Origin: Candidatus Peribacteria bacterium
GTDB lineage: Bacteria; Patescibacteriota; Gracilibacteria; Peribacterales; Peribacteraceae
Assembly: GCA_023038255.1 (NCBI GenBank)
Contig: CP082927.1
Span: 1,130,146 to 1,194,145 of the forward strand
Length of the DNA stretch: 64,000 bases
Reading direction: 5' to 3'
In this document: one piece after another, positions 7,441-44,024 of the stretch
Position numbering within the stretch: the first letter of the stretch is position 1
Layout of the letters: every line of letters starts with the position of its first letter
Translations under genes and position numbers: made by a program
The notes under the pieces: generated by a model
Database searches by the model: none
Told to the model about the DNA's origin: nothing
Seen by the model: only the letters and a program-made list of their open reading frames with translations

Positions 7441-7446
7441 GCTCAG

Positions 7447-7517: not shown

Positions 7518-7520
7518 TTC

Positions 7521-7526: not shown

Positions 7527-7532
7527 CCCTCC

Positions 7533-8549: not shown

Positions 8550-8551
8550 GC

Positions 8552-9016
8552 ATGGAACGCTCCCCGCTTCAAAAAATCGCACCCGATGTTATTCTGGGAC
8601 AAGACGTTGTCATCCGTGATTTTGTGAATATGTACGGCTGCACTATCGGTGACGGCTCGCGCATCGGGGCATTTGTCGAAATACAGAAAGGCGTGGTCAT
8701 CGGAAAAAACTGCAAGGTATCGAGTCATAGTTTTCTCTGTGAGGGTGTAATTCTGGAAGACGGGGTATTTATCGGTCACGGGGTCATGTTCACCAATGAC
8801 AAGCGTCCGCGTGCCGTAAATACGGACGGAAGTCTGCAAACCGAACAGGACTGGGAATGTCTCAAAACACATGTCGGGCGGATGGCATCCATCGGATCCA
8901 ACGCGACTATCCTGCCGGGCATCAGCATTGGTGAAGGAGCTATGATCGGTGCCGGCGCAGTGGTGACAAAAAACGTTCCGGCTCATGCCATTGTTAAAGG
9001 AAATCCCGCCCTATGA
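8552..9016 (+). CDS. Hexapeptide-repeat acyltransferase (WbpD-like)
   Basis: The 154-residue protein is a left-handed beta-helix built from hexapeptide repeats: IAPDVILGQDVVIRDF, CTIGDGSRIGAFVEI and later GSNATILPGISIGEGAMIGA. The insert TNDKRPRA and the ending VTKNVPAHAIVKGNPAL are typical of sugar N-acetyltransferases such as WbpD or QdtC. It would transfer an acetyl group from acetyl-CoA to the amino group made by the DegT enzyme of the same operon. It starts 2 bases after the oxidoreductase stop and overlaps the formyltransferase ATG (ATGA). Confidence 0.88.
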   Translation: MERSPLQKIAPDVILGQDVVIRDFVNMYGCTIGDGSRIGAFVEIQKGVVIGKNCKVSSHSFLCEGVILEDGVFIGHGVMFTNDKRPRAVNTDGSLQTEQDWECLKTHVGRMASIGSNATILPGISIGEGAMIGAGAVVTKNVPAHAIVKGNPAL

Positions 9017-9855
9017 AGACAGCAATCATTGCAGGCAATGGCGATATCGCGATCCGCTGCACGCAGATCCTGCAGCAACACGCGCACATCCTGGCCGTCT
9101 CCCCTGACCCCAAAGACACGGGCACCGCTACCTGGCAGCCGTCATTTGCCGCATATGCCGAAAGCCAGAACCTTCCCCTGCACCGCACGAAACTCCGCGA
9201 ATCGCTCGACTGGCTCAAAAATAGCAAACCGGATTTTCTCTTCTCCTTTCAGTGTGCCGAATTGCTGACCAAAGAAGTCATTGAAAGCGCAACCTACGGA
9301 GTGATCAACCTTCACTTCTCCCCGTTACCGCGCTACAGAGGCTGCTTCCCCGGTGCCTGGTCCCTGCTGAACGGTGAAACAGAAATGGGCGTCACGCTTC
9401 ATTACATAGATGAAGGCATCGATACAGGCGATATCATCGCCCAAAAAATATTCCCCATCCAGCCGGCAGATACCGCCAAAGACGTATATCTTTCCTGCAT
9501 AGAGCACGGCACACAGCTCTTTTCCGAGCACTGCCTCCCGGTTCTCGAGCAAAAGAATACGCGCACCCCGCAAAAGAATGAGGACTACACCTACTACGGC
9601 AGAAACACGATACATTTCTCGGAGAAGACCGTGCAGTGGAACCAGCCGACGGAACGCCTGTACAACTGGATACGGGCATTTACATTCCCTCCGCTGCAGT
9701 GGCCGGTGTGCGAATTCGGCTCGATCGTCCACGCGGAACGCCGCATGCTGTATCCCGTTCAAAGCCCGGGCACGGTCATCAGCCGGTCGGACAACACACT
9801 GACTGTCGCCACGCTGGACGGCGCCCTGTACATTCATGTAGAACCAGAAGCGTAA
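9013..9855 (+). CDS. Amino-sugar N-formyltransferase (methionyl-tRNA formyltransferase fold)
   Basis: This 280-residue protein has the formyltransferase catalytic set: Asn and His in VINLHFSPLPRYRG and Asp in YIDEGIDTGDII, the N-H-D triad that uses N10-formyl-tetrahydrofolate. The C-terminal half (about residues 195-280) matches the size of the OB-like domain seen in sugar formyltransferases rather than a tRNA-binding domain. Placement between an acetyltransferase and a DegT aminotransferase points to formylation of a sugar nucleotide amino group, as in VioF, QdtF or ArnA. A true Fmt acting on Met-tRNA is less likely here. Having both acetyl- and formyltransferases suggests two acylated positions or two products. 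Confidence 0.85.
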   Translation: MKTAIIAGNGDIAIRCTQILQQHAHILAVSPDPKDTGTATWQPSFAAYAESQNLPLHRTKLRESLDWLKNSKPDFLFSFQCAELLTKEVIESATYGVINLHFSPLPRYRGCFPGAWSLLNGETEMGVTLHYIDEGIDTGDIIAQKIFPIQPADTAKDVYLSCIEHGTQLFSEHCLPVLEQKNTRTPQKNEDYTYYGRNTIHFSEKTVQWNQPTERLYNWIRAFTFPPLQWPVCEFGSIVHAERRMLYPVQSPGTVISRSDNTLTVATLDGALYIHVEPEA

Positions 9856-9888
9856 TCATCAGATTCTTACCTGCTTTTCACTCCTGAC

Positions 9889-10980
9889 ATGTCTGTCCCC
9901 TTCCTTGATCTCCAGGCCCAGTACCGCACTATCAAAGACGACATCGGTCCCGCCATCCAGAAAGTGCTCGATTCTTCTGCATATATTCTGGGGCCGGCAG
10001 TGGAATCATTTGAAAAAGAATTTGCAGCCTACTGCGGCACAAGTCATTGCGTCGCGGTCAATTCAGGCACTGCAGCCCTCGCACTCCTGATGCAGGCGTA
10101 TGACATTGGCGAAGGAGATGAAGTGATTACGGTCACCAACAGCTTCTTTGCGTCCGCGGAAGCAATCTCCGAAATCGGTGCCATCCCCGTCCTGGTAGAC
10201 TGCACGCCCGATACCGCTCTGATGGACCCTGCATTAATTGAAGCAGCTATCACCCCGCACACGAAAGCGATTCTCCCTGTGCACCTCTACGGACAGCCGG
10301 TCGATATGGATGCCATCATGGCAATCGGCAAAAAACACGGCGTACTGGTATTCGAAGATGCATGCCAGGCGCACGGCGCTCTCTACAACGGAAAGCGAAC
10401 AGGCAGCTTGGGTGACGGTGCGGCGTTCAGCTTTTACCCCGGAAAAAATCTGGGATGCTACGGAGAAGGTGGAGCTGTCACCACCAATGATGCAGAGATT
10501 GCCCAGAAGCTCCGCGTGCTCCGCGAACACGGTTCGCCCAAGAAATATCATCACGATGTAGTGGGATGGAATGAACGTATGGACGGTATTCAGGGCGCGG
10601 TGCTTGGCGTCAAGCTGCCGCATTTAGACAATTGGAATAATGCCCGCCGTTCGCACGCAGAAGAGTATCTGGCCAAACTTCCGGAAAAAGCAGTGCCGAT
10701 TGCTACCCAACCAGGAAGCACATCTGTCTATCACCTCTTTATCATCCGGGTTGCTGACCGCGACCGTGTCCAGAAAGAACTTGCAGACAGAGGTATTGCT
10801 ACCGGCATCCACTATCCGGTCCCAATCCACCTCCAGCCGGCCTATGCCAGCAACTGGAAGAAGGGCGATTTCCCGCACAGTGAAAAGCTGGCCGAGGAAA
10901 TCCTCTCGCTCCCCATGTTCCCGGAACTCACAAGCGAACAGATTGACGCTGTTATCAGTGCGCTGAACGAGGTACTCTGA
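9889..10980 (+). CDS. DegT/DnrJ/EryC1/StrS sugar aminotransferase
   Basis: The 363-residue enzyme starts VPFLDLQAQYRTIKDDI, the usual beginning of PLP-dependent sugar aminotransferases. It has SGTAALALLM for phosphate binding, FEDACQAHGA with the PLP ring Asp, and SFYPGKNLG with the Schiff-base lysine (about residue 184). It would aminate the keto-sugar nucleotide produced by the oxidoreductase at 7533 (WbpE-like) or by an RfbB-dependent route. It follows the formyltransferase by 33 bases in the same operon and has no clear Shine-Dalgarno sequence. Confidence 0.92.
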   Translation: MSVPFLDLQAQYRTIKDDIGPAIQKVLDSSAYILGPAVESFEKEFAAYCGTSHCVAVNSGTAALALLMQAYDIGEGDEVITVTNSFFASAEAISEIGAIPVLVDCTPDTALMDPALIEAAITPHTKAILPVHLYGQPVDMDAIMAIGKKHGVLVFEDACQAHGALYNGKRTGSLGDGAAFSFYPGKNLGCYGEGGAVTTNDAEIAQKLRVLREHGSPKKYHHDVVGWNERMDGIQGAVLGVKLPHLDNWNNARRSHAEEYLAKLPEKAVPIATQPGSTSVYHLFIIRVADRDRVQKELADRGIATGIHYPVPIHLQPAYASNWKKGDFPHSEKLAEEILSLPMFPELTSEQIDAVISALNEVL

Positions 10981-27007: not shown

Positions 27008-28198
27008 TCATAGCGCAGTTTCCCCTTCCCAAAGGATAAACATGAGAGATTTGAAGAATGTGGCAGGATGACGCAATGTATCAGACAAGGACCGCCAGGC
27101 GGTACGAGGAAGGGTTTCTTTCATCGGTGTCAGAGGAGTGTGCTGCTCAATGCGGCTTGTTTCACCGCGTGCACAATCCACACCATAGGTCAGATTCAAC
27201 ACGGCACGCGCCAGCATCGTAACCATTTCCGCACGGTTCATATGATCATTCGGACGGACAAGACCCGTATCGGCATCTCCCAGCAGCACACAATGATCGG
27301 CAGCAATCTGCACTGATCGCGTATACCACTGATCCGGAAGATTATCCGGAAAAACCGGTGCATACCCATTCCGGGAAAGATGGAGGAAGCGCACAATCAT
27401 CTGCGCAGCTTCTGCACGGGTCACAAGGAGTGCAGGTTTATCAAAACACGGACGTGTGCCGTAACAATCTCCATACCCGATCATCCAGCCACGACGCCCT
27501 GCTTCTTCAGTGTAGGGAAAATACCAGCTGCGCAGAGGGACATCGGCAAAGCTCGGCACAGAAGGAGACGGCGCAAGAATGCCACCGGACATCACCACAA
27601 GCAGCTTTGCAAAAGCAGCACGGGTTGCGCCGGCTTCAGGATAAAAAAGGCAGGCAGGATCTATATAGCCGGCACCACGGAAAGCGCGGACAGGAGCGGT
27701 AAACCAGACATCATCCGGAACATCCTCATACCAGGCTCCGTCACACGGAACAGGTGCAGCGGGACGCGTGCGATGCAAGCGGGCCCATCGATTTATTTTT
27801 TCATCAATACGATCCCCGAGCGATCCGGTAGGAAGATCCGGCGGGGTGACAACAGCGACGGTAACGGATGATGTGCTGTCACTCGACACAGCTGATGACA
27901 CATCGGAAGAGGACGACAAAGAAGAAGAGACAGAAGAGGATGAAACGGAACTGGATGAAACAGATGAAGAAGACACGACAGGCGTTCCCGATCCGCAATT
28001 GCCGGTTCCCGGATCTCCGTCATCCGGCCCAATGACAGAGACAGCAATACACACCTCCTCCGTTGTGGCACGAAGATGGTGCAACGGAGAAAGAAGCAAC
28101 GAGATGGACAAACCGGTCATCAGGAAAACAGCTGCAACCAGTCCGTGCCAGGCGGGAAAATATCTCTTCTGCCTGCGGGATAAAGGGTGTGTCTTCAA
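27008..28198 (-). CDS. S-layer homology (SLH) domain protein
   Basis: The 396-residue protein has a basic start KTHPLSRRQKRYFP and a hydrophobic signal segment to about residue 43. A Ser/Val-rich linker (VSSSSVSSSS repeats, about 73-110) leads to three SLH repeats: DDVWFTAPVRAFRGAGYIDP, PLRSWYFPYTEEAGRRGWMI and PDQWYTRSVQIAADHCVLLG, each followed by a T/NRAE-A segment. SLH domains bind secondary cell wall polymers, so the protein probably anchors the envelope lattice. The start is TTG at 28198 with GAGGGG 2 bases upstream and TATAAT 8 bases upstream. No catalytic domain is seen. Confidence 0.85.
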   Translation of the reverse strand: MKTHPLSRRQKRYFPAWHGLVAAVFLMTGLSISLLLSPLHHLRATTEEVCIAVSVIGPDDGDPGTGNCGSGTPVVSSSSVSSSSVSSSSVSSSLSSSSDVSSAVSSDSTSSVTVAVVTPPDLPTGSLGDRIDEKINRWARLHRTRPAAPVPCDGAWYEDVPDDVWFTAPVRAFRGAGYIDPACLFYPEAGATRAAFAKLLVVMSGGILAPSPSVPSFADVPLRSWYFPYTEEAGRRGWMIGYGDCYGTRPCFDKPALLVTRAEAAQMIVRFLHLSRNGYAPVFPDNLPDQWYTRSVQIAADHCVLLGDADTGLVRPNDHMNRAEMVTMLARAVLNLTYGVDCARGETSRIEQHTPLTPMKETLPRTAWRSLSDTLRHPATFFKSLMFILWEGETAL

Positions 28199-29272: not shown

Positions 29273-29377
29273 GCTGGTGTGGAAGAGTAGTGCATGGAAC
29301 AGCATATGCACAAGTGCGGCTGGTATGGACAAACACCCTGGTCTACACTGCAACTGCTTTTCCATCCGCCTCTCTTT

Positions 29378-29935
29378 ATGAAAAAAATCCTTGCCGTTCT
29401 TCTGACGCTTGTCCTGGTGGTTGTCGGCGTTGTTGCTTATAACCAGTATCAAATTCGCGCACTCGAAACACTCGTGAAAGAAAAAGCGGCTGCAGTGGCA
29501 GCAGGATATGGCACCATCATTGACCAGACACTTGTGCCACTGAACAAGACGCAAACGCTCAGTCAAACGCAAGCCACCATTTTGCGTGTCGTCACCCAAA
29601 CAAGAGAGGCCCTCGGGGAAGAAGAAAAAACACCTGCCATGGTCTCACTCATTCATACCATGCAGCTTTCTCTCGTCTCTTTTCTGAAAAGCGTACAACC
29701 GGACCAGTCATTCTCCGGCAGTGACCCGATCGCGTACCTGCAGCATGAAATGAGCGAGCGCGGCGATATCAATGAACAGCTGAGTGCCTACAATGAAGCA
29801 GCCAAGCAATGGAATGACCGGATACAAAACAAGATAGGCAGCTTAAAAGGAAATATCCTGGGAACGGAAGGTGCATTGCTCCCCTATCTGCGTTTTGACG
29901 GCCAGCAAGAGTATTTCACGACTATTTCCCTCTAA
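29378..29935 (+). CDS. LemA-like membrane-anchored helical protein
   Basis: The 185-residue protein has one N-terminal helix, KKILAVLLTLVLVVVGVVAY, and then an all-helical region with ATILRVVTQTREALGEEEK and LSAYNEAAKQWNDRIQNKIG, the latter resembling the AYN...YN segment of LemA proteins. LemA proteins have an N-terminus-out topology and a helical bundle; their role is unclear. The start at 29378 removes an unlikely 28-residue extension. It is read divergently from the DUF916-like gene and is followed by a 311-base gap. Confidence 0.6.
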   Translation: MKKILAVLLTLVLVVVGVVAYNQYQIRALETLVKEKAAAVAAGYGTIIDQTLVPLNKTQTLSQTQATILRVVTQTREALGEEEKTPAMVSLIHTMQLSLVSFLKSVQPDQSFSGSDPIAYLQHEMSERGDINEQLSAYNEAAKQWNDRIQNKIGSLKGNILGTEGALLPYLRFDGQQEYFTTISL

Positions 29936-30246
29936 AAACACCGCCATTTGGCAAAGAGAACAAAGGTTCAGGCTGCGCTACAAAAGTTCAGATGGATGCG
30001 CAACAGCCGGAGAGTGGCGTGAAACGGCAATCAGAGCACAATCTGTGAGAGGACAATCGGGTATAGCAAACAAGACATGGCTTGTGTCTGCGATACTTCC
30101 CTCTGCCCCCGCCCATGCCGATCCCGGGGGTCCGGGGCTGTATAGCAGGCTTTGCATCTGGCATAAAAGTTCAGAATGATTGCACCGAAGTGAACTTTTT
30201 GATATAATAATTAGAAAAATTCACCACAAACACACACGACACAAAA
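29936..30246 (+). promoter_or_regulatory. Regulatory gap before the HTH/giant-protein operon
   Basis: This 311-base gap holds no convincing gene. It has four copies of (A)AAAGTTCA: CAAAGGTTCAG at 29961, CAAAAGTTCAG at 29981 (exactly 20 bases apart), TAAAAGTTCAG at 30164 and an inverted TGAACTTTT at 30191-30199. The last two form a perfect 9-bp inverted repeat around the -35 box. They look like operator sites of a dimeric regulator, perhaps the HTH protein encoded just downstream. Confidence 0.55.
30180..30208 (+). promoter_or_regulatory. Promoter of the HTH/giant-protein operon
   Basis: TTGCAC (30180-30185) and a consensus TATAAT (30203-30208) are 17 bases apart. The transcript would have a leader of about 30 bases, A/C-rich and without a Shine-Dalgarno sequence. 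Confidence 0.75.
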
Positions 30247-30960
30247 ATGCACGCTCTCACTTCATCACAGCTTCGCGAGCTTGCTTCCAGTCCGGAGGCG
30301 GCACGCTTGAGCGTGAGCGCGCGTGAACGTCTCGGGTGGATTGTGACTTTCATGGAGCATGGACAGTCAGTGAGTGAGACCTGTGAGAACATCGGAATTT
30401 CGCGCAGCACATTTCACCGGTGGCTCGAACGTTTCGATCCGAAAGATCTTTCGACGCTCGAAGAAAAATCACATGAGCCACTGACGCCGCGCGTACCCAA
30501 CGTGTCCGCCGATGCAGTGACGCTCATCCGCGCGTACCGCCAGACAAGCCCGCACATGGGCAAAGAAAAAATCCGCGCCCTGCTGGCCACAGAACATGGT
30601 ATCACCATCTCGAGCTCAACAGTCGGCCGCGTGATCGAACGTGAACGTCTGTACTTTGCTGCAACGCCACTGCACTGGAAAAAGCGCACGAGCTCTGCAC
30701 AGTATGCAGTCACTCCTGCAGAGAATGAAAACGGGGAGGTAGCTCCTGTGATGGCAGTACACACAATGCCGGTACGCATCACACAGAAAAAACACCCGGC
30801 ATGGAAGCGTGCACTTATTACCAGCAGCATCCTCATCAACATCGCCATCATCACACTCTTCCTGGCCACTGCGTCCTGGGAGTTGAAAGACATGAATGCG
30901 TCCGTCACCAAAGAAAAGCCGGCGCAGACAATCACCGTCTCCAATCTTGACCGCCCATGA
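30247..30960 (+). CDS. Transposase-type HTH protein with C-terminal membrane anchor
   Basis: Residues 15-140 of this 237-residue protein are the two-part HTH of IS481/IS630-type transposases: ERLGWIVTFMEHGQSVSETC, ENIGISRSTFHRWLERFDP, then VTLIRAYRQTSPHMGKEKIR and ITISSSTVGRVIERERLYF. The rve catalytic domain that follows in transposases is missing. Instead there is a polar linker and one membrane helix, ALITSSILINIAIITLFLAT (about residues 193-212), with a short external tail. No terminal repeats flank it. It looks like a domesticated DNA-binding domain turned into a membrane-bound regulator. Its stop overlaps the giant gene ATG, so the two are coupled. Confidence 0.75.
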   Translation: MHALTSSQLRELASSPEAARLSVSARERLGWIVTFMEHGQSVSETCENIGISRSTFHRWLERFDPKDLSTLEEKSHEPLTPRVPNVSADAVTLIRAYRQTSPHMGKEKIRALLATEHGITISSSTVGRVIERERLYFAATPLHWKKRTSSAQYAVTPAENENGEVAPVMAVHTMPVRITQKKHPAWKRALITSSILINIAIITLFLATASWELKDMNASVTKEKPAQTITVSNLDRP

Positions 30961-33900
30961 TGCACTCCTTCCTCCGCCACCGGCAGAGAATGTGCATCCG
31001 TCTCAAGCGGAGCATCGCCGCTGTCACATTGATGACCATGCTGACACAGATGTCAGGTCTCACACAGCTCTCCGCCTTCTCTTCTGCTCTCGCCATCCCG
31101 AAAGCGGAAGCCGCGACAGGCATCTTCCCGGCTATCAACTATCAGGGCCGCATCACAGGCATCAACGGGACATCTGTTGCGAATGGTAAATATAACGTGC
31201 GCTTCAAAATCTACACGGCAGCGATTGGCGGATCTCCCGTCTGGAGCGAAACATGGGACACTACCACACAGCAGGTCACCATGACCGGCGGACTCTTCTC
31301 TGTCCCCCTTGGTACACATGTGACCATGACAGGAAGCGTCAACTTCAATACGGACAATATTTATCTCCAGATTGAATTCGATGACGACAACAATAACACC
31401 TACACGGAAATCTTCACCCCGCGCCGCCGCTTCGGATCGGTCCCCTACGCACACAATGCAAACATGCTCGACGGACTCGATTCCACAAAGTTCGTCCGCA
31501 AAGACCAGCCGGAAACACTCTCCGGCACGCTGACTATTAAACCGAATGTCTCATCCGTTCTTGCACTCAAGGCAATCGGCACACTGTCCGGTACGGCAAT
31601 CCATGCGGATCAGGATCTGAGTGCATCCGGAAATATTATTGCAGAAGGAACGATCTCCGGCTCTTCTCTCTATGCCGGAACAAGCATCCGGGGTGGCGGG
31701 CTCACCGATTGTGATGCTGCATCCTCCAGACTTCTCTGGGACGCAACAACCGGTCGCTTCTCCTGCGGCACCATCAGCCCAAGCTTCTCGACGGGCAACG
31801 TGCTCACAATTGGCAATGCGAAATATGTGAGCAAGCAGGGTGACACAATGACGGGGGCTCTCGTCATTAATATCCAGAGTGGTTCACTCGGAAGTATGGG
31901 CCTGAGAGTGATCAATACATTGAGCGGTGCCATCATCCATGCAGAGAAAGAACTCACCTCTTCCGGAACATTGATGGTGAAGCAGACGGGAACAGTCCGT
32001 GGATCAGGAGCTCTGACGGTGGTGAATACAACGACCACAGGAACAGGAGCATATATGGCTGCAAATGACGCCGTTCTTGCGCTCAACAGCACAGCCAATA
32101 CAGTTGCAGCATCCAAACACATTCTCTTTGGCTACAAGGGAACATTTGATACGACCCTCTGGAGAAGTGCAGCAAACGTACTCTCTACAAACGGAACATT
32201 CTCGGGAGCATCTCTCTATGCAGACAACACCATCCGCGGTGCTGGTCTGGCAGACTGTGACGACGGAGTGGCAAGCAAGCTCCTCTGGGATGCAACAAGC
32301 GGCCGCTTCAGCTGTGGAACGGATCAGAGTGGATCGAGTGGCCTTTCGCAGGCTGCGGGTGATGCACGCTACGTAAAAAAGAGTGGTGATACCATGACAG
32401 GAGTGCTTGTGATCCAGAACGGCAACACACACACTCCTACTGGAACTGCTCTCTTGAATGTAAGAGGAACGATCTCTGGTACCACTCTCTACGCAAATTC
32501 TGCCCTCCGCTCTTCTGGCTCTATCACGGCAGAAGGCGCCATCAGTGGATCAAGTCTCTACGCAGGAACCAGCATCCGTGGTGCAGGCTTGAGTGATTGT
32601 GATACCGCATCGTCCGCACTACAGTGGGACGCAACAACAGGCCGCTTCTCCTGCGGCACCATTACAGGAAGCAGCTTCTCCACAGGAAATGTGCTGACGA
32701 TTGGCAATGCGAAATATGTGAGCAAGCAGGGTGACACAATGACGGGTGCTCTCGTCATTAATGTGCAGGGCGGCACACTGGGAACAATCGGATTGAAGGT
32801 ACTCAACACCCTCTCGGGTGCCATCATCCATGCAGAAAAAGAACTCACCTCTTCCGGAACATTGATGGTGAAGCAGACGGGAACAACGCGTGGATCGGGA
32901 GCGCTGACAGCAGTAAACACGACACGCTACGGAACAGGAGCATATATCACATCCAGCGGGTCTGTCCTTGTGCTCAATACAGCATCAACCACATCCCGTC
33001 ATATCCTGTTTGGATATGCAGGAAACTTTGATACGGCTCTCTGGAGAAGCGGTGCTGCAACATTGTCTACCAATGGAACATTCTCCGGTGTCACGCTCTA
33101 TGCAAACTCTGCGATCCGCTCTTCTGGTTCGATTGTTGCAGAAGGTGCGATCTCTGGATCTTCTTTGTACGCAGGAACCAGTATCCGTGGTGCAGGCCTG
33201 ACGGATTGTGACACCTCTGCAACGAGCAAGCTTCTGTGGGATGCAACAACCGGACGCTTCAGCTGTGGCACAGACCAGGCTGGTGGCAGCTTCTCGACGG
33301 GCAATGTGCTCACGATTGGAAACGCCAAGTACGTCAGCAAGCAGGGTGATACGATGACAGGAGCGTTGGTGATCAATATGCAGGGTGGCACCATGAATAC
33401 GGTTGGCCTTAATGTTATGAATACAATCTCCGGCGCAATCATTCATGCGGAAAAGAGCCTTACTTCTTCAGGAACCCTTGCAGTCGAAGGAGCAGCAACG
33501 GTTGGTGGCATGCTGCATGTACTCCAAAGTAACGGCGAAATCCGGCTGGATACAGGGGGAGCGGGAAACACGTCCACTCTCTCGTTCTATGACGGTTCAC
33601 AGCGTGCAACTATTTCGAATAATCAGGCGACATTTACTTTCGCGATTTCTACGCAAAACACACTCTTAATCAATTCAAGCGATTATATCGCCATGTCCGC
33701 TCCGAACTATGTGAATATCAATAACATTGCCACATTTACGACAGCCGGCTTGGGTCTTGGAACTGCAACACCCGATACGCCGCTAGAAGTGATTGGCACA
33801 ATCTCCGGATCGACGGTGTATGCAGCCAATGCACTCCGCTCGTCTGGCAGCATTACCGCAGAAGGTGCGATCTCTGGATCTTCTTTGTATGCAGGAACAA

Positions 33901-36900
33901 GTATCCGTGGAGCAGGTTTAAGTGATTGTGACACCTCTGCAACGAGCAAACTTCTGTGGGATGCAACAACCGGACGCTTCAGCTGTGGAACTGATGCTGC
34001 TGGTGGTGGCTTCTCTACGGGAAACGTGCTGACGATTGGCAATGCGAAATATGTCTCAAAGCAGGGTGATACGATGACAGGAGCGTTGGTGATCAATATG
34101 CAGGGTGGATCACTTGGAAGTATTGGTCTCAGAGTATTGAATACATTGAGCGGTGCCATCATCCATGCAGAGAAAGAACTCACTTCTTCCGGAACATTGA
34201 TGGTGAAGCAGACGGGAACAACGCGTGGATCGGGAGCGCTGACAGCAGTAAACACGACACGCTACGGAACAGGAGCATATATCACAGCATCTGGATCTGT
34301 CCTTGTGCTCAATACAGCATCAACCACATCCCGTCATATCCTGTTTGGATATGCAGGAAACTTTGATACGGCTCTCTGGAGAAGCGGTGCTGCAACATTG
34401 TCTACCAATGGAACATTCTCCGGTGTCACACTCTACGCAAACTCTGCTATCCGTTCCTCTGGTTCGGTTGTTGCAGAAGGAGCCATCAGTGGATCAAGTC
34501 TCTACGCAGGAACATCCATCAGCGGAGCAGGTTTAAGTGATTGTGACACCTCTGCAACGAGCAAGCTTCTGTGGGATGCAACAACGGGAAGATTCAGCTG
34601 TGGCACAGATTCCTCCGGAAGCTTCTCCACAGGAAACGTCCTGACGCTCGGCAATGCTCGCTACGTTGAACTGAAGGGCGACAGTATGACTGGATCATTG
34701 CAGACACCGAGCATCAACCTGTCGGGCGTCCTGCTGACCAATCTCAATGGATTTAACGAAGCACTCAATCTGAACAATGCAGGACTTGCAACCTATGGCG
34801 TCACTCGTTTGCAGGCGAATGGAAACCTCACCAATATCGGCTCCGTCCAGTCAGGTGAAATCCATGCAACAATGGGGGGAACGTTTGCAGCGAAAGTGGA
34901 CTACACCGTAGGAAACAGTCCATTCTCCGTTGCCATGGGAGATCTGAACGGAGATGGCGTACAGGATTTGGTGGCGTCAAACTACAGCAACAATTCTGTT
35001 TCTGTCCTGCTCAATAATGGAAATGGAACATTTGCAACAAAGGCAGACTATGCAACGGGATCCAGTCCGTACTTTGTGACCGTGGGCGATCTGAATGGAG
35101 ATGGAAAATTGGATATCGTCACGCCAAACAATGGAACCACTACGATCTCTGTCCTGCTCAATAATGGAAATGGAACGTTTGGGGCGAAAGTGGACTACAC
35201 AACAGGATCGAGTCCAAAAGCTGTTGCCATCGGTGATCTGAATGGTGATGGCAAAGCAGACTTGGCGGTAGCAAACAGCAGTTCTGCCCTCTCTATATTC
35301 ATGAATAAAGGAAACGGCACGTTTGCAGCAAAAGTGGACTACACAACAGGATCAACCCCATTCTCTGTTGCCATCGGTGATCTGAATGGTGACGGAAGAC
35401 TGGATGTGGTCACGGCCAACAATGGCACCACCACAGTTTCAGCATTCTTAAATAAAGGAGACGGCACGTTTGCAATAAAGGCAGATTACACCGTGGGGGG
35501 CAGCCCATATTCTGTTGCGATCGGCGATCTGAACGGTGATGGAAAAGCAGATTTGGCGACAGCAAATGGCGGCACCAGTGCATCAGTCTTGATAAATAAT
35601 GGAAATGGCACCTTTGCCACGAAGGTAGATTATACAACGGGAAGCTTGCCATACTCTATTGCTATTGGTGACATCAATGGTGATGGCAAGGCAGACCTGG
35701 GAGTGGCAAACTACACCAGCAACACTATTTCCACCCTCCAAAACAGAGGGAACGGAACATTTGCAACGAAAGTAGACTATGCCGCAGGAGCCAATCCTGC
35801 CTCCATTGCCATCGGCGATCTGAATGGTGATGGTAAAGCAGATTTGGCGACAGCAAATGGTGGCACTACTACTGTCTCCGTCTTCCTGAACAACACCAAA
35901 ACCATCCTCTATGCATCCAGTGGAACAGGTGGAACAGTCGGTATCGGCACCTCCACTCCGGGTGCGAAGCTTGCAGTGTCCGGCTCGGTGCTCATTGGCA
36001 ATAACATTACAAATAGAGCAACGAAGACAAACGTCGGACTGGAAGTGATTGGTACCATCTCCGGTGCCATCGTGACCGCAAACACACTGCGCTCCAGCGG
36101 ATCGATTGTGGCTGAAGGAACCATCAGTGGTGCAAACCTCTATATAGGAACTTCAATCCGTGGAGCAGGACTGGTGAATGACTGTGATACCGCATCGACC
36201 AGCAAACTCCTCTGGGACTCTACAACCGGACGCTTCAGCTGTGGAACGGATACAGCCGGAGGAGGCTTCTCTACCGGTAACGTCATCACGATCGGCAACG
36301 CCAACTACGTGAAAAAGGCGGGAGATACCATGACAGGAACACTCGTCATCGATATCAAGAACGGCACTCTGGGATCACTCGGACTGCGTGTCCTGAACAC
36401 CCTCTCCGGCGCCATCATCCATGCAGAGAAAGAGCTGACCTCTTCCGGAACATTGATGGTGAAGCAGACGGGAACAACACGTGGATCAGGAGCGCTGACA
36501 GCAGTAAACACGACACGCTACGGAACAGGGTCATACATGGCAGCATCCGGTGCCATTCTTGTCCTGGATAGTACGGCGGGTGGCGCGGGCAACAGCAAGT
36601 CCCCGCATATTCTGTTTGGCTACAAGGGTACCTTCGATGTCTCCCTTGCCCGCACTGCAGCAAACACACTGTCTCTGACAGGATCCTTCCTGCCAGGTTC
36701 CACCAACCGTTACGACCTTGGTTCTTCTACTATGCGTTGGAGAGATCTGTATCTGTCCGGCTCCAGCCTGCACATTGGAACAAACGGCAATGAGGCAACC
36801 GTAGGCTACAACACGGCAGGAAGTTACTTCACAGTGGGAACCAGTAGTCAGACCAATGCCTTCACCATCCTGAACTCCAATGGATTTGTAGGTATTGGAA

Positions 36901-39900
36901 CAAACAATGCCGATACGAAACTCGAGGTCATTGGCACCATCAGCGGTTCCACCGTCTATGCAGCAAATGCTCTCCGCTCATCCGGAAGTATGACCGCAGA
37001 AGGCGCGATCAGTGGATCAAGTCTCTACGCAGGAACATCGATCAGCGGAGCAGGACTCAGTGATTGTGATACAGGTGCAACCAGTAAGCTGCTGTGGGAT
37101 GCAACCACCGGACGCTTCTCCTGTGGCACAGATCAGACAGGAACAAGCAGTTCCTTCTCCACTGGAAATGTGCTGACGATTGGCAATGCGAAATATGTGA
37201 GCAAGCAGGGTGACACAATGACGGGGGCTCTCGTCATTAATATCCAGGGTGGTTCACTCGGAAGTATGGGCCTGAGAGTGATAAATACCCTCTCCGGTGC
37301 CATCATCCACGCAGAGAAAGAACTCACCTCTTCCGGAACATTAATGGTGAAGCAGACGGGAACAACGCGTGGATCGGGAGCGCTGACAGCAGTAAACACG
37401 ACACGCTACGGAACAGGGTCATACATGGCAGCATCCGGTGCCATTCTTGTCCTGGATAGTACGGCAGGTGGCATCGGCAGCAGCAAGTCTCCGCATATTC
37501 TGTTTGGGTATAAGGGAAACTTTGATATCGCTCTCTGGAGAAGTGCTGCGAATGTGCTCTCAACCAATGGAACATTCTCCGGATCCGTTCTCCGCGCAGA
37601 CAGATTGCTGACATCCTCGGGATCGCTCGCGGTAGAATCTGGTGCATACATTGGGGGCGATGTGCGCTTCGATGCTGCAAGAAATCACGTCATCAGCGTA
37701 CAGGGCACAACAGGGACCACAGGAAAAGGACTGAGCATTGTTGCAGGAGACGCTGCGATATTGGGAGGCGCGCTGGTCCTGCAGGGTGGAACAAACGGAA
37801 CAAACCGCGCTGCTATTACCCTGAACGGCACAGGAGATCTTGGCGGTGATATTAGTGTCATTGCAGGTCATGCAAGCAACACCGCCGAGCAGGGGGGAAA
37901 CCTGACACTGTCCGCCGGAAACGGAGGAAACAATCCGGGATATGTTGTGATTGCAGGTGGAGCAAATTCATTCACGGGAGCAGGAGGATCTGTCTACATC
38001 TACGGAGGAGACGGGGTATCTGCCGGCTCGGGAAACGTAATGCTTGGCATGACCAGTGCAGGTGTTGCTGCAGGAAACGTTGGTATCAGAACACTCAATC
38101 CGGGGACCGCGCTGGAAGTGAATGGTACAATCTCTGGTTCTATTCTCTTTGCAAACTCTGCTCTCCGCTCCTCCGGAAGCATTACGGCAGAAGGAACAAT
38201 CAGCGGAGCAAATCTGTACGTAGGCACATCCATTCAGGGTGCAGGTCTGACGGATTGTGACACTGGTGCAACAAGCAAACTCCTCTGGGATACAACAACA
38301 GGTCGCTTCTCCTGTGGAACAGACCAGACAGGAGGTGGCAGCTCCAGTTTCTCTACAGGAAATGTCCTGACGATCGGCTCTGCAAAATACGTGAGCAAGC
38401 AGGGTGATACGATGACCGGTGCCCTGCAGGTACCGGAAATCAGAGGAAATGATGCAACGGCAATCAATACACGAGGAACCAACCTGGTTGTAGCCGGTGG
38501 TCGCGCGCAGGGTTCTGCAAGCGGCGGAGATATCCTCTTCAAAACCGCACCTACCAATACTGCAAGTGCTGCTGTTGCTGCCAACTTTGTTGCTGCCAAC
38601 ACCGAATACCTTTCCATTGGAGACAACGCCGATCTCTCGTTCGGTGACGAAGATTTCTCCATTGCGGGCTGGGTGTATTTCAATAGTCTGACAGGTGGCG
38701 GATCATTCGGAACGATTGTCGGCAAATACAATACAGGAGCAAACGAACGTGAATATTCCGTGTACCTGCCATCCGGTACCAACAAACTGCGCTTTGTTGT
38801 CACAAACAATGGATCCGTCGCGAACGGCATCCTCGATTCCACCGTCAGCGTCACCACGGGCACATGGTACTTCGTCTATGCTGAACATGATTCCGTAAAC
38901 AATGAGCTTGTGCTTAAAGTAAACGACAACACGGCTGACACCCTTTCCTACAGCCTGGGAGGACGTGATGGTGCATCGACCTTCGCACTGGGAAACATGG
39001 TAGGTCTGTCCAGCGCGCAACTCGATGGACGCTTGGATGAAATAGCTATCTATAACAGAGTGCTTACCCCCACTGAACTTACATACCTTTACAACGGTGG
39101 AGCAGGACGCGTGTACGGAGGAATCGGTATCCCTGCAACAGATGGCTCTGATCTCACCACTTCCCTTATTTCCTGGTGGGATCTGGACGAGACATCTGGC
39201 AGCAGAGCAGACAGCCACGGATCCAACACCCTGACAGACAACAACACCGTTACAAGCGCAGCCGGTAATGTCTCAGCCAGCTCATCCGATCTGAATACAC
39301 TGGTCAGCCGCATGGTTATCACGAGCTCCGGAGCTGTAGGAATCGGCACCATCACCCCGGGTTCCACCCTTGCGGTATCGGGCGCCACTATCATCAACGG
39401 AAAGGGCACCGCAAACACCAGGGCAAAAGCAGGTCTTGCTCTTGAAGTCATTGGTACCATCAGCGGTTCTACGGTCTATGCAGCGAGCGCTCTGCGTTCA
39501 TCTGGATCCATTACCGCAGAAGGAACAATCTCCGGAGCCAGCCTCTACATCGGAGGATCCATGAGAGGGGCAGGCCTTGTCTCCGACTGTGACACCGCAT
39601 CCACAAGCAAACTCCTCTGGGACTCTACAACCGGACGCTTCAGTTGTGGCACAGATTCCTCCAGTAGTTTCTCCACAGGAAACGTCCTCACCCTGGGTGG
39701 CGCCCGCTACGTGGAACTGAAGGGTGACAGCATGACGGGCTCACTCCAGACTCCGAGCGTTAACTTGTCCGGCGTGCTGCTGACCAGTCTCAATGGACAT
39801 AACCAGGTTCTCAACTTGAACAATGCAGGACTGGCGACCTACGGCGTCACGCGCATGAGTGCAGATGGCAACCTCAACAATATCGGATCCATCCAATCCG

Positions 39901-42900
39901 GAGAAATCCATGCGACTACAAATGCCTCCTTTGGCACCGCGGTAACCTATACTGTGGGAAGCGGCCCGCGCGGTTCAGCCATCGGAGATTTTAACGGAGA
40001 CGGAAGAGGAGATGTGGTTGTGACCAATGCCTCCACCACAACCATCTCCGTGCTCCTGAATACAGGCTCGGGCAAGCTTGCGGCAAAAACAGATTATACA
40101 GTCGGAAACTTCCCCTATGTGGTCGTTATTGGAGATTTGAACGGAGACGGCAAGCAGGACCTTGCAACCGCAAACAGCGGAGGAAACACCATGTCTGTGC
40201 TCCTGAATACAGGAAGTGGTAAATTTGCAACACACACAACCTACGCAACCGGCACTGCCCCGCGCGGCCTTGTCATTGCAGATTTCAACAGAGACGGAAA
40301 GCCGGATCTGGTAACAGCAAACTACTCATCTAATACCATTTCCGTCTTTATAAACAAAGGAAACGGAACATTTGCAACAAAGGCGGATTACGCCGCAGGG
40401 TCCGGCCCATTCGGTATGACAACCGGTGACTATAATGGAGACGGACATGCGGACGTCGCAGTTGCAAACAGTAGCACTACCACCATGTCTGTCCTTATGA
40501 ACGACGGAGACGGAACATTTGGAACAAAAGTCGATTACATAACTGGCACCACTCCGCTCAACCCTACAACAGCTGACTTTGATGGCGACGGAAAGGCGGA
40601 CCTTGCAGTTGTGAACAACGGAAGTACAACGGTCTCTGTCTTCATTAACTCCGGCACGGGAAGTTTCAGGCCAAAGGTCGACTACGCCACGGGAGCGGGT
40701 CCAAACACAGTAACATCCGGAGATCTTAATGGAGACGGAAAACCAGATATGGCGGTCAGCAACTTCAGCACAACAACCGTGTCCATTTATATCAATAATG
40801 GAAACGGAACATTCGCCACACAAGTTCCCTATACAGCCGGATCAAACCCTCTCGTAGTTTCGATGGCCGATATGAACGGCGACGGAAAGGCGGATCTTGT
40901 CATGCCACTCTGGAGCAATAGTGCAGTCGCTGTCTTGTTCAATAGAACAAGCACCCTCCTCTACGCGTCTGCAGGAACGGGTGGATACGTGAGCATTGGC
41001 ACCCCGCACATGAAGGCCAAACTCACTGTCAGCAATACGAATAATGGTGTCATGACCGGTGCCTACATCTACTCGTCCGGTGCCGTCCTCGCTCTGGATG
41101 CCCGCACCCTCTCCGGCGCCAAGACCCCGCATCTCCTCTTCGGTTACCGCGGCGCCTTCGACACACGCATCACCCGTACATCCACAGGATCCCTCACCTT
41201 TGCATCCAACACGGGAGTTCTTCTCACTCTGAACACCGAAAGAGCAGATGCCACCGGTAACGTCTTCCAGATCATCTCCGATGCAACCACCTCCTTCGGT
41301 GGACCAGACGAAAACAAAGTCTTCCGCATCCAGGCCAACGGTGCCACCTTCGCAGACGGTGCCTACACCTCAAACGGCGCCGACTACGCCGAGTGGTTCT
41401 ACTCCGGCAACGAGAAACTCAAATCCGGTGAAGTCGTCTGTATCGATATCACCAAGAACAACACTGTGAAGCGTTGTCTCAACGAAGCAGACAGCAATGT
41501 CATGGGTATCGTCTCCACGAACCCCGCCTTCATTGGTAACGGCATCACCGGTGCAGACGGCATCATCCCTCCGGGATATGCCTTAATCGGTCTCATCGGA
41601 CAGGTGCCGACCAAAGTGATTGTCTCCGGTACTGGTTCCATCCGTCCGGGTGACGCTCTCACACCTGCCTCCACTCCAGGCTACGCTCGCAAGGCGATGC
41701 CGGGTGAATCGACAGTCGGTGTCGCGCTCGAAGGTATTGCATCCGGCGAAGGCGTCATCAACGTCCTCATCTCCCGCAGAAACTCTTCCATGACCGTGGA
41801 TGCCGTCGGACAGAAGGTGCTTGATACCATCGCTTCCATGAAGATCGGTGATGAAGTGCAGCTGATGGTTGCATCCAGTCTCGAAAACCTGAATGTCGAT
41901 TCCCAGATCCAGGAAGAAGTGCAGAAGCAGGTCTCCGGCATCAAGTCCTATGATGCAGATATTCTTTCTCTTCAGACAGAGCTGGATGACCTGAAGAACC
42001 AGCTTGCTCTCATCAAGAGTCAGACAGGCTCCACCACCACAGTTATCACCACCACAGGTTCTGCGCTCGCTGCAGATCTCACGGCTGCCACACTCGTCCT
42101 CGAGCAGACACTGGCAACCGGAGGGGATGCCAGAATCGGTGGCGATCTCCACCTGGATGGCACATTGATGGCAAGTAGTCTCTTCGTTCCAAATGGCCTC
42201 TCCATTGATGGAGGTGCAACCATTACAGGCACCCTTGCAGCAACCACCATCCACAGCACATCCGGTGCAACCATCGACGGAACACTGACCGTGAATGGAG
42301 ACATCCGAATCAGCAGCGGATCATTGCTCTTCGATTCCGGTGCAACCCTGAGTCTTTCTGATCTTGTCGTCGAACGCAGTCTCATCATCCTTGGGGATAT
42401 TACGATCGATGGACTCGCACGGTTCTTTGGAAATGTGATCATCCACGGCGAACTCATCCTCAGCAATAAACAGGCAGGCTTCGCCCTCATCCCCAAGAGC
42501 GGTACCTCTGTCACCGTCCTCTTTGGTTCCGGCGGACTCAGTGGCATTCCTGTTGTCACAGCCAGCCCGGACACCCCTGTTCTCTACGGTGTGAAGAACG
42601 CAACTCACAGCGGATTCACCATCAATCTCGCCGGACCTGCTACCGCAGACATCCGCTTCTCCTGGATTGCGATGGTGACGGAAAACGCAATGACACAGAC
42701 AGGCGCAGTCGCCCTCCGCGACACCTCTATGATCTTCCCGATGGGTTCCGACAATATCCCGGTCAGTAGCAGCATGTACTGGAATGCCTGTATCAGAAAC
42801 ATTGCGATCATTGATACGGACGGCAAACCGCACTCCTGCGCCCGCTATCACGAGGACTACACCTGGACCCACCCGGATCTCCTGATTGAATTCCTCTGGA

Positions 42901-43352
42901 ATACAAATATCACTCCTCCGCTCCTTCATCTCCCGGATGGATATACACTGGAAGTGACAGAGGATGCGGAGAGTATCCGCAGTGCATTCACGTTCGGCAC
43001 CAATGAAGCAGAGCCTGTGACACCAGAACCAACCGAGGGAATTATTGAAGAGACTCCCGCAGAACCAATCGAAGAAGAAACTACTCCGGAAGAAGCCGCA
43101 TCTGACACACCTGCTTCAGAAGACATTACTCCTGAGGAACCTGCAACAGAAACCGAGCCGATTGAGACAACTCCTGCTGATACATCTGCATCCGAGACAC
43201 CATCCGAATCGTCACTTGATGAACTGACCATTAATCCTGTGGTGACAGAGCCTGAGCCAGAACCTGCAGCTGAACCTACGACAGAAGTGAGTGCCCCATC
43301 CGACTCATCCACCGGAGCCGCAGCGCAAGCAGAACCCGCAGTTACCGAGTAA
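30957..43352 (+). CDS. Giant modular surface protein with fibre-like modules, two FG-GAP arrays and LamG domain
   Basis: This 4131-residue protein has an N-terminal export signal ending near residue 53 (PKAEAA). A head domain (about 55-180) reads INYQGRITGINGTSVANGKY and ends SVPYAHNANMLDGLDSTKFV, as in phage-fibre-like surface proteins. Ten modules follow, each with a Cys pair (DCD...GRFSCGT) and a YVSKQGDTMTGAL-type motif. Two arrays of seven FG-GAP/VCBS units (about 1305-1650 and 2990-3330), each with a DLNGDGKAD-type calcium loop, fit two seven-bladed propellers. A LamG-like domain lies near 2545-2725. Near 3465-3600 is a GADYAEWFYSGNEKLKSGEV domain like the self-cleaving chaperone end of phage appendages, then a coiled coil, a bactofilin-like beta-stack, a lectin-like segment and an acidic Pro/Glu/Thr tail. 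There is no clear wall anchor. Adhesion or host attachment is inferred. Confidence 0.85.
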   Translation: MMHSFLRHRQRMCIRLKRSIAAVTLMTMLTQMSGLTQLSAFSSALAIPKAEAATGIFPAINYQGRITGINGTSVANGKYNVRFKIYTAAIGGSPVWSETWDTTTQQVTMTGGLFSVPLGTHVTMTGSVNFNTDNIYLQIEFDDDNNNTYTEIFTPRRRFGSVPYAHNANMLDGLDSTKFVRKDQPETLSGTLTIKPNVSSVLALKAIGTLSGTAIHADQDLSASGNIIAEGTISGSSLYAGTSIRGGGLTDCDAASSRLLWDATTGRFSCGTISPSFSTGNVLTIGNAKYVSKQGDTMTGALVINIQSGSLGSMGLRVINTLSGAIIHAEKELTSSGTLMVKQTGTVRGSGALTVVNTTTTGTGAYMAANDAVLALNSTANTVAASKHILFGYKGTFDTTLWRSAANVLSTNGTFSGASLYADNTIRGAGLADCDDGVASKLLWDATSGRFSCGTDQSGSSGLSQAAGDARYVKKSGDTMTGVLVIQNGNTHTPTGTALLNVRGTISGTTLYANSALRSSGSITAEGAISGSSLYAGTSIRGAGLSDCDTASSALQWDATTGRFSCGTITGSSFSTGNVLTIGNAKYVSKQGDTMTGALVINVQGGTLGTIGLKVLNTLSGAIIHAEKELTSSGTLMVKQTGTTRGSGALTAVNTTRYGTGAYITSSGSVLVLNTASTTSRHILFGYAGNFDTALWRSGAATLSTNGTFSGVTLYANSAIRSSGSIVAEGAISGSSLYAGTSIRGAGLTDCDTSATSKLLWDATTGRFSCGTDQAGGSFSTGNVLTIGNAKYVSKQGDTMTGALVINMQGGTMNTVGLNVMNTISGAIIHAEKSLTSSGTLAVEGAATVGGMLHVLQSNGEIRLDTGGAGNTSTLSFYDGSQRATISNNQATFTFAISTQNTLLINSSDYIAMSAPNYVNINNIATFTTAGLGLGTATPDTPLEVIGTISGSTVYAANALRSSGSITAEGAISGSSLYAGTSIRGAGLSDCDTSATSKLLWDATTGRFSCGTDAAGGGFSTGNVLTIGNAKYVSKQGDTMTGALVINMQGGSLGSIGLRVLNTLSGAIIHAEKELTSSGTLMVKQTGTTRGSGALTAVNTTRYGTGAYITASGSVLVLNTASTTSRHILFGYAGNFDTALWRSGAATLSTNGTFSGVTLYANSAIRSSGSVVAEGAISGSSLYAGTSISGAGLSDCDTSATSKLLWDATTGRFSCGTDSSGSFSTGNVLTLGNARYVELKGDSMTGSLQTPSINLSGVLLTNLNGFNEALNLNNAGLATYGVTRLQANGNLTNIGSVQSGEIHATMGGTFAAKVDYTVGNSPFSVAMGDLNGDGVQDLVASNYSNNSVSVLLNNGNGTFATKADYATGSSPYFVTVGDLNGDGKLDIVTPNNGTTTISVLLNNGNGTFGAKVDYTTGSSPKAVAIGDLNGDGKADLAVANSSSALSIFMNKGNGTFAAKVDYTTGSTPFSVAIGDLNGDGRLDVVTANNGTTTVSAFLNKGDGTFAIKADYTVGGSPYSVAIGDLNGDGKADLATANGGTSASVLINNGNGTFATKVDYTTGSLPYSIAIGDINGDGKADLGVANYTSNTISTLQNRGNGTFATKVDYAAGANPASIAIGDLNGDGKADLATANGGTTTVSVFLNNTKTILYASSGTGGTVGIGTSTPGAKLAVSGSVLIGNNITNRATKTNVGLEVIGTISGAIVTANTLRSSGSIVAEGTISGANLYIGTSIRGAGLVNDCDTASTSKLLWDSTTGRFSCGTDTAGGGFSTGNVITIGNANYVKKAGDTMTGTLVIDIKNGTLGSLGLRVLNTLSGAIIHAEKELTSSGTLMVKQTGTTRGSGALTAVNTTRYGTGSYMAASGAILVLDSTAGGAGNSKSPHILFGYKGTFDVSLARTAANTLSLTGSFLPGSTNRYDLGSSTMRWRDLYLSGSSLHIGTNGNEATVGYNTAGSYFTVGTSSQTNAFTILNSNGFVGIGTNNADTKLEVIGTISGSTVYAANALRSSGSMTAEGAISGSSLYAGTSISGAGLSDCDTGATSKLLWDATTGRFSCGTDQTGTSSSFSTGNVLTIGNAKYVSKQGDTMTGALVINIQGGSLGSMGLRVINTLSGAIIHAEKELTSSGTLMVKQTGTTRGSGALTAVNTTRYGTGSYMAASGAILVLDSTAGGIGSSKSPHILFGYKGNFDIALWRSAANVLSTNGTFSGSVLRADRLLTSSGSLAVESGAYIGGDVRFDAARNHVISVQGTTGTTGKGLSIVAGDAAILGGALVLQGGTNGTNRAAITLNGTGDLGGDISVIAGHASNTAEQGGNLTLSAGNGGNNPGYVVIAGGANSFTGAGGSVYIYGGDGVSAGSGNVMLGMTSAGVAAGNVGIRTLNPGTALEVNGTISGSILFANSALRSSGSITAEGTISGANLYVGTSIQGAGLTDCDTGATSKLLWDTTTGRFSCGTDQTGGGSSSFSTGNVLTIGSAKYVSKQGDTMTGALQVPEIRGNDATAINTRGTNLVVAGGRAQGSASGGDILFKTAPTNTASAAVAANFVAANTEYLSIGDNADLSFGDEDFSIAGWVYFNSLTGGGSFGTIVGKYNTGANEREYSVYLPSGTNKLRFVVTNNGSVANGILDSTVSVTTGTWYFVYAEHDSVNNELVLKVNDNTADTLSYSLGGRDGASTFALGNMVGLSSAQLDGRLDEIAIYNRVLTPTELTYLYNGGAGRVYGGIGIPATDGSDLTTSLISWWDLDETSGSRADSHGSNTLTDNNTVTSAAGNVSASSSDLNTLVSRMVITSSGAVGIGTITPGSTLAVSGATIINGKGTANTRAKAGLALEVIGTISGSTVYAASALRSSGSITAEGTISGASLYIGGSMRGAGLVSDCDTASTSKLLWDSTTGRFSCGTDSSSSFSTGNVLTLGGARYVELKGDSMTGSLQTPSVNLSGVLLTSLNGHNQVLNLNNAGLATYGVTRMSADGNLNNIGSIQSGEIHATTNASFGTAVTYTVGSGPRGSAIGDFNGDGRGDVVVTNASTTTISVLLNTGSGKLAAKTDYTVGNFPYVVVIGDLNGDGKQDLATANSGGNTMSVLLNTGSGKFATHTTYATGTAPRGLVIADFNRDGKPDLVTANYSSNTISVFINKGNGTFATKADYAAGSGPFGMTTGDYNGDGHADVAVANSSTTTMSVLMNDGDGTFGTKVDYITGTTPLNPTTADFDGDGKADLAVVNNGSTTVSVFINSGTGSFRPKVDYATGAGPNTVTSGDLNGDGKPDMAVSNFSTTTVSIYINNGNGTFATQVPYTAGSNPLVVSMADMNGDGKADLVMPLWSNSAVAVLFNRTSTLLYASAGTGGYVSIGTPHMKAKLTVSNTNNGVMTGAYIYSSGAVLALDARTLSGAKTPHLLFGYRGAFDTRITRTSTGSLTFASNTGVLLTLNTERADATGNVFQIISDATTSFGGPDENKVFRIQANGATFADGAYTSNGADYAEWFYSGNEKLKSGEVVCIDITKNNTVKRCLNEADSNVMGIVSTNPAFIGNGITGADGIIPPGYALIGLIGQVPTKVIVSGTGSIRPGDALTPASTPGYARKAMPGESTVGVALEGIASGEGVINVLISRRNSSMTVDAVGQKVLDTIASMKIGDEVQLMVASSLENLNVDSQIQEEVQKQVSGIKSYDADILSLQTELDDLKNQLALIKSQTGSTTTVITTTGSALAADLTAATLVLEQTLATGGDARIGGDLHLDGTLMASSLFVPNGLSIDGGATITGTLAATTIHSTSGATIDGTLTVNGDIRISSGSLLFDSGATLSLSDLVVERSLIILGDITIDGLARFFGNVIIHGELILSNKQAGFALIPKSGTSVTVLFGSGGLSGIPVVTASPDTPVLYGVKNATHSGFTINLAGPATADIRFSWIAMVTENAMTQTGAVALRDTSMIFPMGSDNIPVSSSMYWNACIRNIAIIDTDGKPHSCARYHEDYTWTHPDLLIEFLWNTNITPPLLHLPDGYTLEVTEDAESIRSAFTFGTNEAEPVTPEPTEGIIEETPAEPIEEETTPEEAASDTPASEDITPEEPATETEPIETTPADTSASETPSESSLDELTINPVVTEPEPEPAAEPTTEVSAPSDSSTGAAAQAEPAVTE

Positions 43353-44024
43353 TCAAAAAAATCCGGCAACCAGTTCAAACACAGAAAGGACAAACCCAAT
43401 AATGCCATAGACCCATCCGGAGAGAATCTGGATCGGCAGGAAGCTTTCAAAAAGAATAAGTCCAATCAAGATAAAGGGTCCGATGCGGACGAAATCTTCA
43501 TACCGTCTTTCATACTGATACGGCACAAACATCTGGATGATGTTCGATCCGTCGAGCGGCGCAATCGGGAACAGGTTGAATGCCATCAGCGCGAGATTCA
43601 CAAAAAGTGAACTCTGCAAAATCTGAATCAAGACCGTGTACCCCGCAGAGCCCTCCGGCGCTTGCAGCAAATCAGACGCAGACAATGCATCGCCACCGGT
43701 CACAATAGTCAGAATCGTAAATGCAACGATAGCGAGAATAAGATTGCTGAACGGTCCGGCTACAGCCACCAAAGACAAATCACGCTTCGGATGACGGAAA
43801 TACCGACCATCAACCGGCACCGGCTTCGCCCATCCGAATCCAATCAGAAGAAACATAATCGCCCCCATCGGATCGAGATGCGCGATAGGATTCAGAGTAA
43901 GCCGCCCATTTTGCTCCGGCGTCGGGTCCCCGAGCTTATGCGCAGTGTACGCATGTGCCCATTCATGAATGGAGAGCGCAATAAGAATGCTGATGATGTA
44001 CGCGGGATTCAGAAAGGGGCTCAT
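43353..44024 (-). CDS. Site-2-protease-like M50 membrane metalloprotease
   Basis: The 223-residue protein is a compact S2P: SIHEWAHAYTAHKLGDPTP carries HExxH in the first helix, NPIAHLDPMGAIMFL and WAKPVPVDGRYF follow, and NLFPIAPLDGSNIIQ holds the third zinc ligand Asp. Six helices are likely and there is no PDZ domain, as in the short rhomboid-adjacent M50 group. It may cleave membrane-bound regulators; the membrane-anchored HTH protein at 30247 is one conceivable substrate, but nothing in the sequence proves it. TATACT lies 6 bases before the ATG. Its stop touches the giant gene stop. Confidence 0.9.
   Translation of the reverse strand: MSPFLNPAYIISILIALSIHEWAHAYTAHKLGDPTPEQNGRLTLNPIAHLDPMGAIMFLLIGFGWAKPVPVDGRYFRHPKRDLSLVAVAGPFSNLILAIVAFTILTIVTGGDALSASDLLQAPEGSAGYTVLIQILQSSLFVNLALMAFNLFPIAPLDGSNIIQMFVPYQYERRYEDFVRIGPFILIGLILFESFLPIQILSGWVYGIIGFVLSVFELVAGFF

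Follow-up and report, generated by a model that had tools for sequence, protein, structure and literature searches.

What does the DNA-binding region of a transposase do when its gene runs directly into that of a giant surface protein? The window, a 64-kb stretch of a Ca. Peribacteria genome that consists of one 1.24-Mb contig, poses this question in gene P0001. We propose that P0001 is probably a dedicated, cis-encoded autoregulator of its co-translated surface-fibre gene, most likely a repressor, and that each fibre gene of this kind in the Peribacteria, which are tiny uncultured bacteria, probably makes its own dedicated regulator.

P0001 and its giant partner

30247..30960, + strand: regulator gene P0001, 237 aa; IS481-type two-HTH region, C-terminal membrane helix, no catalytic domain
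30313..30435, + strand: first helix-turn-helix of P0001, HTH_23, aa 23-63 (Pfam; AF2 helices 23-37, 42-49 and 53-62)
30409..30633, + strand: second DNA-binding domain of P0001, HTH_32, aa 55-129 (Pfam; AF2)
30811..30873, + strand: membrane helix core of P0001, aa 189-209, ALITSSILINIAIITLFLATA, with conserved intramembrane Asn198
30957..43352, + strand: giant chimeric surface protein, 4131 aa; signal peptide, MAT_N-like N-terminus, tail-fibre-like repeats, FG-GAP repeats, Laminin_G_3
43353..44024, - strand: short M50 metalloprotease, convergent neighbour of the giant gene; synteny common to genome G035 only

The first-pass annotation described P0001 as the two-part DNA-binding region of an IS481/IS630-type transposase that had lost its rve domain and gained a membrane helix, and Pfam, NCBIfam and AF2 confirm this architecture. 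Pfam places HTH_23 (3e-9), HTH_29 and HTH_32 (1.4e-11) in a row and detects no rve catalytic domain in P0001. Of the 284 positions in the IS481 transposase model NF033577, the protein matches the first 114 (NCBIfam, E 8.9e-20), which makes IS481 the nearer source, with the IS630 model its second-best NCBIfam match (1e-12); the double attribution therefore holds for IS481, with IS630 only in second place. P0001 is not itself an IS481 transposase, since the catalytic domain is missing, and it scores 71 bits against that model, for which the cut-off is 224.

Structure prediction, which had been suggested as a check, predicts with confidence two helical domains plus a helix at 185-219 (mean pLDDT 82.7; AF2 model built with 21 relatives). 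From AF2, hydropathy and the flanking K/R residues, P0001 is predicted to have its N-terminus inside and one membrane helix, so that the ~28 residues after the helix core are its sole outside part; a sensor domain is absent. A PDB sequence search with P0001 returned only a designed protein and SpoIIID, weakly, and Foldseek gave no match to the two-HTH region at E <= 0.001. An RNA element in the leader was rejected, as Rfam returned no match.

The P0001 stop (TGA, 30958-30960) overlaps the start of the giant gene (ATG, 30957-30959) as ATGA, just as the annotation claimed. Bdello_MAT_N matches the N-terminus of the giant protein at E 2.9e-8 (33.7 bits, below the curated cut-off of 60) and recurs at two other loci of the family (4e-9 and 6e-7). 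Two further neighbours lie in the window: a LemA-like membrane protein (29294-29935) on the same strand directly upstream, kept with the locus only in G035, and an SLH-domain surface protein with a serine-rich stretch (27008-28198) near the giant gene.

A regulator family tied to surface genes

P0001 alone as a query found no match in the genome contigs; an alignment of close relatives placed the relatives in Ca. Peribacteria/Peribacteraceae. The HTH-region profile matches 36 of 74 Ca. Peribacteraceae genomes, one of which, G036, has only a transposase-like match. Strong homologues (E <= 1e-19 with this profile) number 45 loci in 35 of the 74 genomes, all of them, without exception, linked to a surface gene. 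Twenty-five are in-frame fusions, with ORFs of up to 4126 aa; among the 20 unfused loci, the regulator runs into the surface gene at 17 (with an exact 4-nt NTGA overlap at 13) and lies 1-2 nt from it at 3. The annotation had proposed a search for rve-less HTH homologues preceding surface giants, and had named as counter-evidence homologues that are mainly full transposases or that lie away from surface genes. The search bears out the proposed association, with one exception in the same class: G255, from another family of that class, reaches E 4e-21. We rejected it as an outside member; after its HTH frame comes an rve-like one, by eye a broken IS481 transposase.

Full transposases within Ca. 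Peribacteraceae score far lower, at E 1e-9 to 5e-15, than the strong family with 1e-19 to 1e-70, and sit on very long branches of the tree. Genuine IS481 transposases in Ca. Peribacteraceae carry rve. The five weaker matches there are transposases or transposase-like, two of them by a Pfam check for rve and the others on visual inspection. Elsewhere in the class, the inspected matches are transposases and the remaining ones have transposase-sized or broken frames.

The 45 loci fall into four groups: G1 with two HTHs and a membrane helix (7, including P0001), G2 with two HTHs (20), G3 with a single HTH (16) and G4 (2). Parsimony requires 7 changes between fused and split forms, at least 4 of them on well-supported branches, which indicates that the tie between regulator and surface gene is kept while its form changes. 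A telling case is L035 (3540-4993), a split intermediate between the fused and unfused forms. At its end the regulator still bears a remnant of the ectodomain start, SSWNSNPFANISGAFQIIDK; the gene that it overlaps has this ectodomain start too, along with a new signal peptide. In genome G028, two fused HTH-surface genes stand in tandem (L053, 2148-5510 and 5823-10679), with HTHs of different clades and different upstream sites.

The strong family is dispensable, since about half of the surveyed genomes (39/74) are without it, although many of the surveyed genomes are incomplete MAGs. Its IS481 ancestry might suggest a decaying, functionless transposase fragment. This explanation is already contradicted by HTH residues that are invariant across ~20 genera, by the coupling of all 45 loci and by the conserved promoter motifs, and is practically untenable.

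Operator-like sites at the P0001 promoter

29963..29970, + strand: one-mismatch copy AAGGTTCA, exactly 20 bp before the distal copy at 29983
29982..29990, + strand: operator-like site AAAAGTTCA, distal
30165..30173, + strand: operator-like site AAAAGTTCA, upstream arm of the inverted pair
30180..30208, + strand: possible promoter TTGCAC-N17-TATAAT, weak -35, exact -10; no call in the consensus scan
30191..30199, - strand: operator-like site TGAACTTTT, downstream arm, in the -35/-10 spacer; position equal in L047 and L048

P0001 was said to have four copies of one site in its promoter region, two of them direct copies 20 bases apart. Three exact copies of AAAGTTCA occur in the 64-kb window, all inside the 311-bp intergenic region before P0001; the fourth, AAGGTTCA, has one mismatch, so the direct pair keeps its exact spacing (29963 to 29983) with one imperfect member. 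The 9-bp inverted pair (30165-30173/30191-30199) is present around the -35 as described and is unique in the genome. The possible -35 that it flanks, TTGCAC (30180-30185), is itself weak and lies 17 bp from TATAAT (30203-30208); a promoter with this -35 was not called by the consensus promoter scan. In the 1.24-Mb genome, pattern searches, which provided all genome-wide motif counts, find AAAAGTTCA 13 times, 3 of them within 218 bp at the P0001 promoter region, a clustering reached by 0 of 200,000 random placements. The other 10 copies appear to lie inside ORFs, and a wider regulon of AAAAGTTCA was rejected.

Promoter motifs across the family

An unbiased k-mer enrichment on the 300 bp upstream of the loci recovered AAAGATCA/AAAGTTCA for G1 and G2 together and CGCTACA for G3, plus the -10 box. 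AAAG[AT]TCA lies upstream of 15/27 two-HTH loci and 0/16 G3 loci, against 8/216 control upstreams (p=1.9e-11), while TGTMKCGMKACA palindromes lie upstream of 13/16 G3 loci, against 0/216 controls and 0/27 two-HTH loci (p=8.7e-19); both p-values are descriptive, as the patterns were defined after the sequences had been viewed and relatives are not independent samples. The controls are 216 upstream regions of other genes, with a G+C of 0.53 against 0.46-0.48 at the loci. The k-mer scan and the genome-wide counts provide independent support.

All 7 exact copies of TGTAGCGCTACA in six G3 genomes stand at a regulator promoter, and across 22 genomes one copy lies off the regulator promoters, within a coding gene. 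A palindrome in G022 was considered as the mark of a hidden family member and rejected; it lies inside a large coding gene. With a degenerate palindrome, 17 of 26 matches in 16 genomes are at regulator promoters. The 9 found elsewhere match the chance background, given that a reversed control pattern has 11, and for the same reason a palindrome-based wider regulon was rejected. Conserved sites at its own promoter, as an autoregulator should have, are thus seen in k-mer, control and genome-wide counts alike. The proposal that P0001 has its own operators finds support across the family in dedicated, operator-like promoter motifs, which we regard as subfamily-specific candidate binding sites.

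Asymmetric sites, mostly on one strand, occur in the groups that keep both HTHs, and palindromes in the one-HTH group. Sites fall in the -35/-10 spacer at the window locus, L045, L047 and L048, and the G3 palindrome typically starts 21-22 nt after the start of the -10, commonly accompanied by another copy 75-210 bp before the -10. These positions, in the spacer or just after the -10, lead us to favour repression over activation, and both the spacer site in the window and the G3 palindrome would suit promoter occlusion. We note that in many two-HTH loci the sites stand > 50 bp ahead of the -10, a position also compatible with activation, and that 12 of the 27, including the relatives L043 and L044, are without an exact AAAG[AT]TCA.

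Membrane helix, signal-peptidase-like sites and possible processing

The intramembrane Asn of P0001 recurs in 22 of 23 G1 and G3 homologues that bear a membrane helix, compared with 1 of 12 G2 fusions, which suggests that the G1/G3 helix probably does something, perhaps dimerisation. A membrane helix is missing from eight of the 20 unfused regulators, all of them G2 members. Each of the 25 fusions has, between the hydrophobic segment after the HTH and the ectodomain, a signal-peptidase-like AxA, as detected by a simple regular expression, and the G3 ectodomain start, SSWxPTLLVNTEAF, also follows ordinary signal peptides in HTH-less paralogues. Signal-peptide and membrane-helix calls are from hydropathy and regular expression, except for P0001, where AF2 was used. 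Taken together, the AxA and the shared ectodomain start suggest that the fused chain may be cut on export, leaving an HTH with a signal peptide.

The annotation suggested that P0001 could be a membrane-bound sensor-regulator, a type of one-component system. In this reading, much as in ToxR/CadC-type transmembrane regulators, an HTH kept at the membrane would respond to a signal from outside or to the condition of the fibre. The helix that this idea invokes is predicted for P0001, its Asn is shared by two subfamilies, and many homologues fuse HTH, membrane helix and ectodomain. Sensing fits poorly, however, with the eight helix-less regulators, with an outside part in P0001 that is short and has no sensor domain, and with an AxA just before the ectodomain in every fusion, and we consider it unlikely.

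With a possible cut at the AxA, a permanent membrane sensor becomes less likely among the fusions, and export-coupled feedback becomes a possibility. In such feedback, signal peptidase would free the fibre from a stub of HTH and signal peptide, an M50 site-2 protease would clear or release the stub, and the free HTH would report exported fibre. Besides the AxA and the mature N-terminus that one subfamily shares with HTH-less paralogues, the conserved intramembrane Asn would suit this scheme, and so would the two M50 genes of the source genome, one of which adjoins the giant gene; E. coli RseP, moreover, eliminates signal peptides (PMC8144685). But the AxA is a regular-expression call, soluble unfused members require no release, and an M50 gene beside a giant-type gene recurs only in G035, the closest syntenic genome. 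M50 was accordingly rejected as a conserved part of the module, and its place in the window is a lead, not evidence, for membership. We view this feedback as a tentative, somewhat unlikely alternative. In a more specific form, which we likewise rate as doubtful, the regulator would be the cytosolic head of the fibre's signal peptide, and each exported and cleaved fibre, perhaps after a further M50 cut, would free one regulator copy for the fibre's own operators; if true, cells would count exported surface proteins.

A membrane helix together with dedicated sites at its own gene could also serve transertion, with the HTH holding the gene at the membrane to aid export of the giant protein and regulation being secondary, for which a Vibrio T3SS2 system offers a precedent (PMC9977878). 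Since soluble members exist, and since the sites overlap promoter elements rather than lying just anywhere near the gene, we judge this tether very unlikely.

The soluble two-HTH regulators L051, L055, L057, L058, L060, L101, L103 and L056(+) share similar short hydrophobic C-terminal tails, such as DQLPLFGS, FIPLTGLTS, LSGLPS and NQLGIFAS, which might act as degrons or as docking peptides.

A proposed model of dedicated autoregulation

Dedicated autoregulation is the best reading of these observations because it accounts for both the co-translation with the fibre and the private promoter sites. We propose that the ancestors of Ca. Peribacteraceae had an IS481-type transposase whose catalytic domain was lost, and that the bipartite DNA-binding region of P0001 now binds operators at its own promoter, which would limit, and most likely repress, transcription of the regulator/fibre unit. 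Both products would be made jointly, via fusion or stop/start overlap, and the regulator could therefore meter the amount of fibre. In the P0001 subfamily, the helix with its conserved Asn would hold the regulator on the inner face of the membrane.

A transposase DNA-binding domain domesticated as a private regulator would provide a sequence-based handle on the control of attachment fibres in host-dependent Patescibacteria. The predicted operators are specific and testable in E. coli without growing the Peribacteria, and the fused form, in which one gene product comprises both a DNA-binding domain and a secreted adhesin, raises the question of export-coupled gene control. A word search of open-licence papers found no description of such a system. 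The Ca. Peribacter genome paper mentions large, variable extracellular proteins (PMC4736985), and a word search of it gave no mention of transposases or helix-turn-helix proteins.

Relation to known systems

With IS481 transposases, P0001 has the N-terminal bipartite DNA-binding region in common; the regulator family differs in being without rve/DDE, in its coupling or fusion to surface genes and in the motif at its own promoter. The Pax paired domain and the DNA-binding domains of TnsB show a weak fold likeness to the two-HTH region that is not significant (Foldseek E 0.012-0.026). Pax, which is also regarded as transposase-derived, is a eukaryotic developmental factor and TnsB an active transposase, both unlike P0001.

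Transmembrane transcription regulators form a natural comparison class (PMC10269533). ToxR, CadC and TcpP partly resemble the family in combining a cytoplasmic HTH, a single membrane helix and an outside part. The family, in contrast, uses an IS481-type HTH_23/HTH_32, includes soluble members, and has as its outside part a fibre/adhesin with a predicted signal-peptidase site, or none; Pfam matches in P0001 are to transposase-type and homeodomain-like HTHs, with none to the ToxR/OmpR-type winged helix (Trans_reg_C).

On the fibre side, the N-terminus of the giant partner is similar, below the curated cut-off, to Bdellovibrio mosaic adhesive trimer (MAT) fibres (PMC10769870), but the giant is much longer and has FG-GAP and laminin-G parts. 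The C-termini of the L041 fusion and the L053 fusion at 5823-10679 have weak matches, just below the curated cut-off, to Peptidase_G2, a self-cleaving phage chaperone. MYRF, a membrane-bound factor with a phage tailspike self-cleaving domain (PMC3742443), likewise joins a DNA-binding domain, a membrane helix and a tailspike-like part in one chain. Order and topology differ, with the fibre outside here, and the likeness drawn is one of arrangement.
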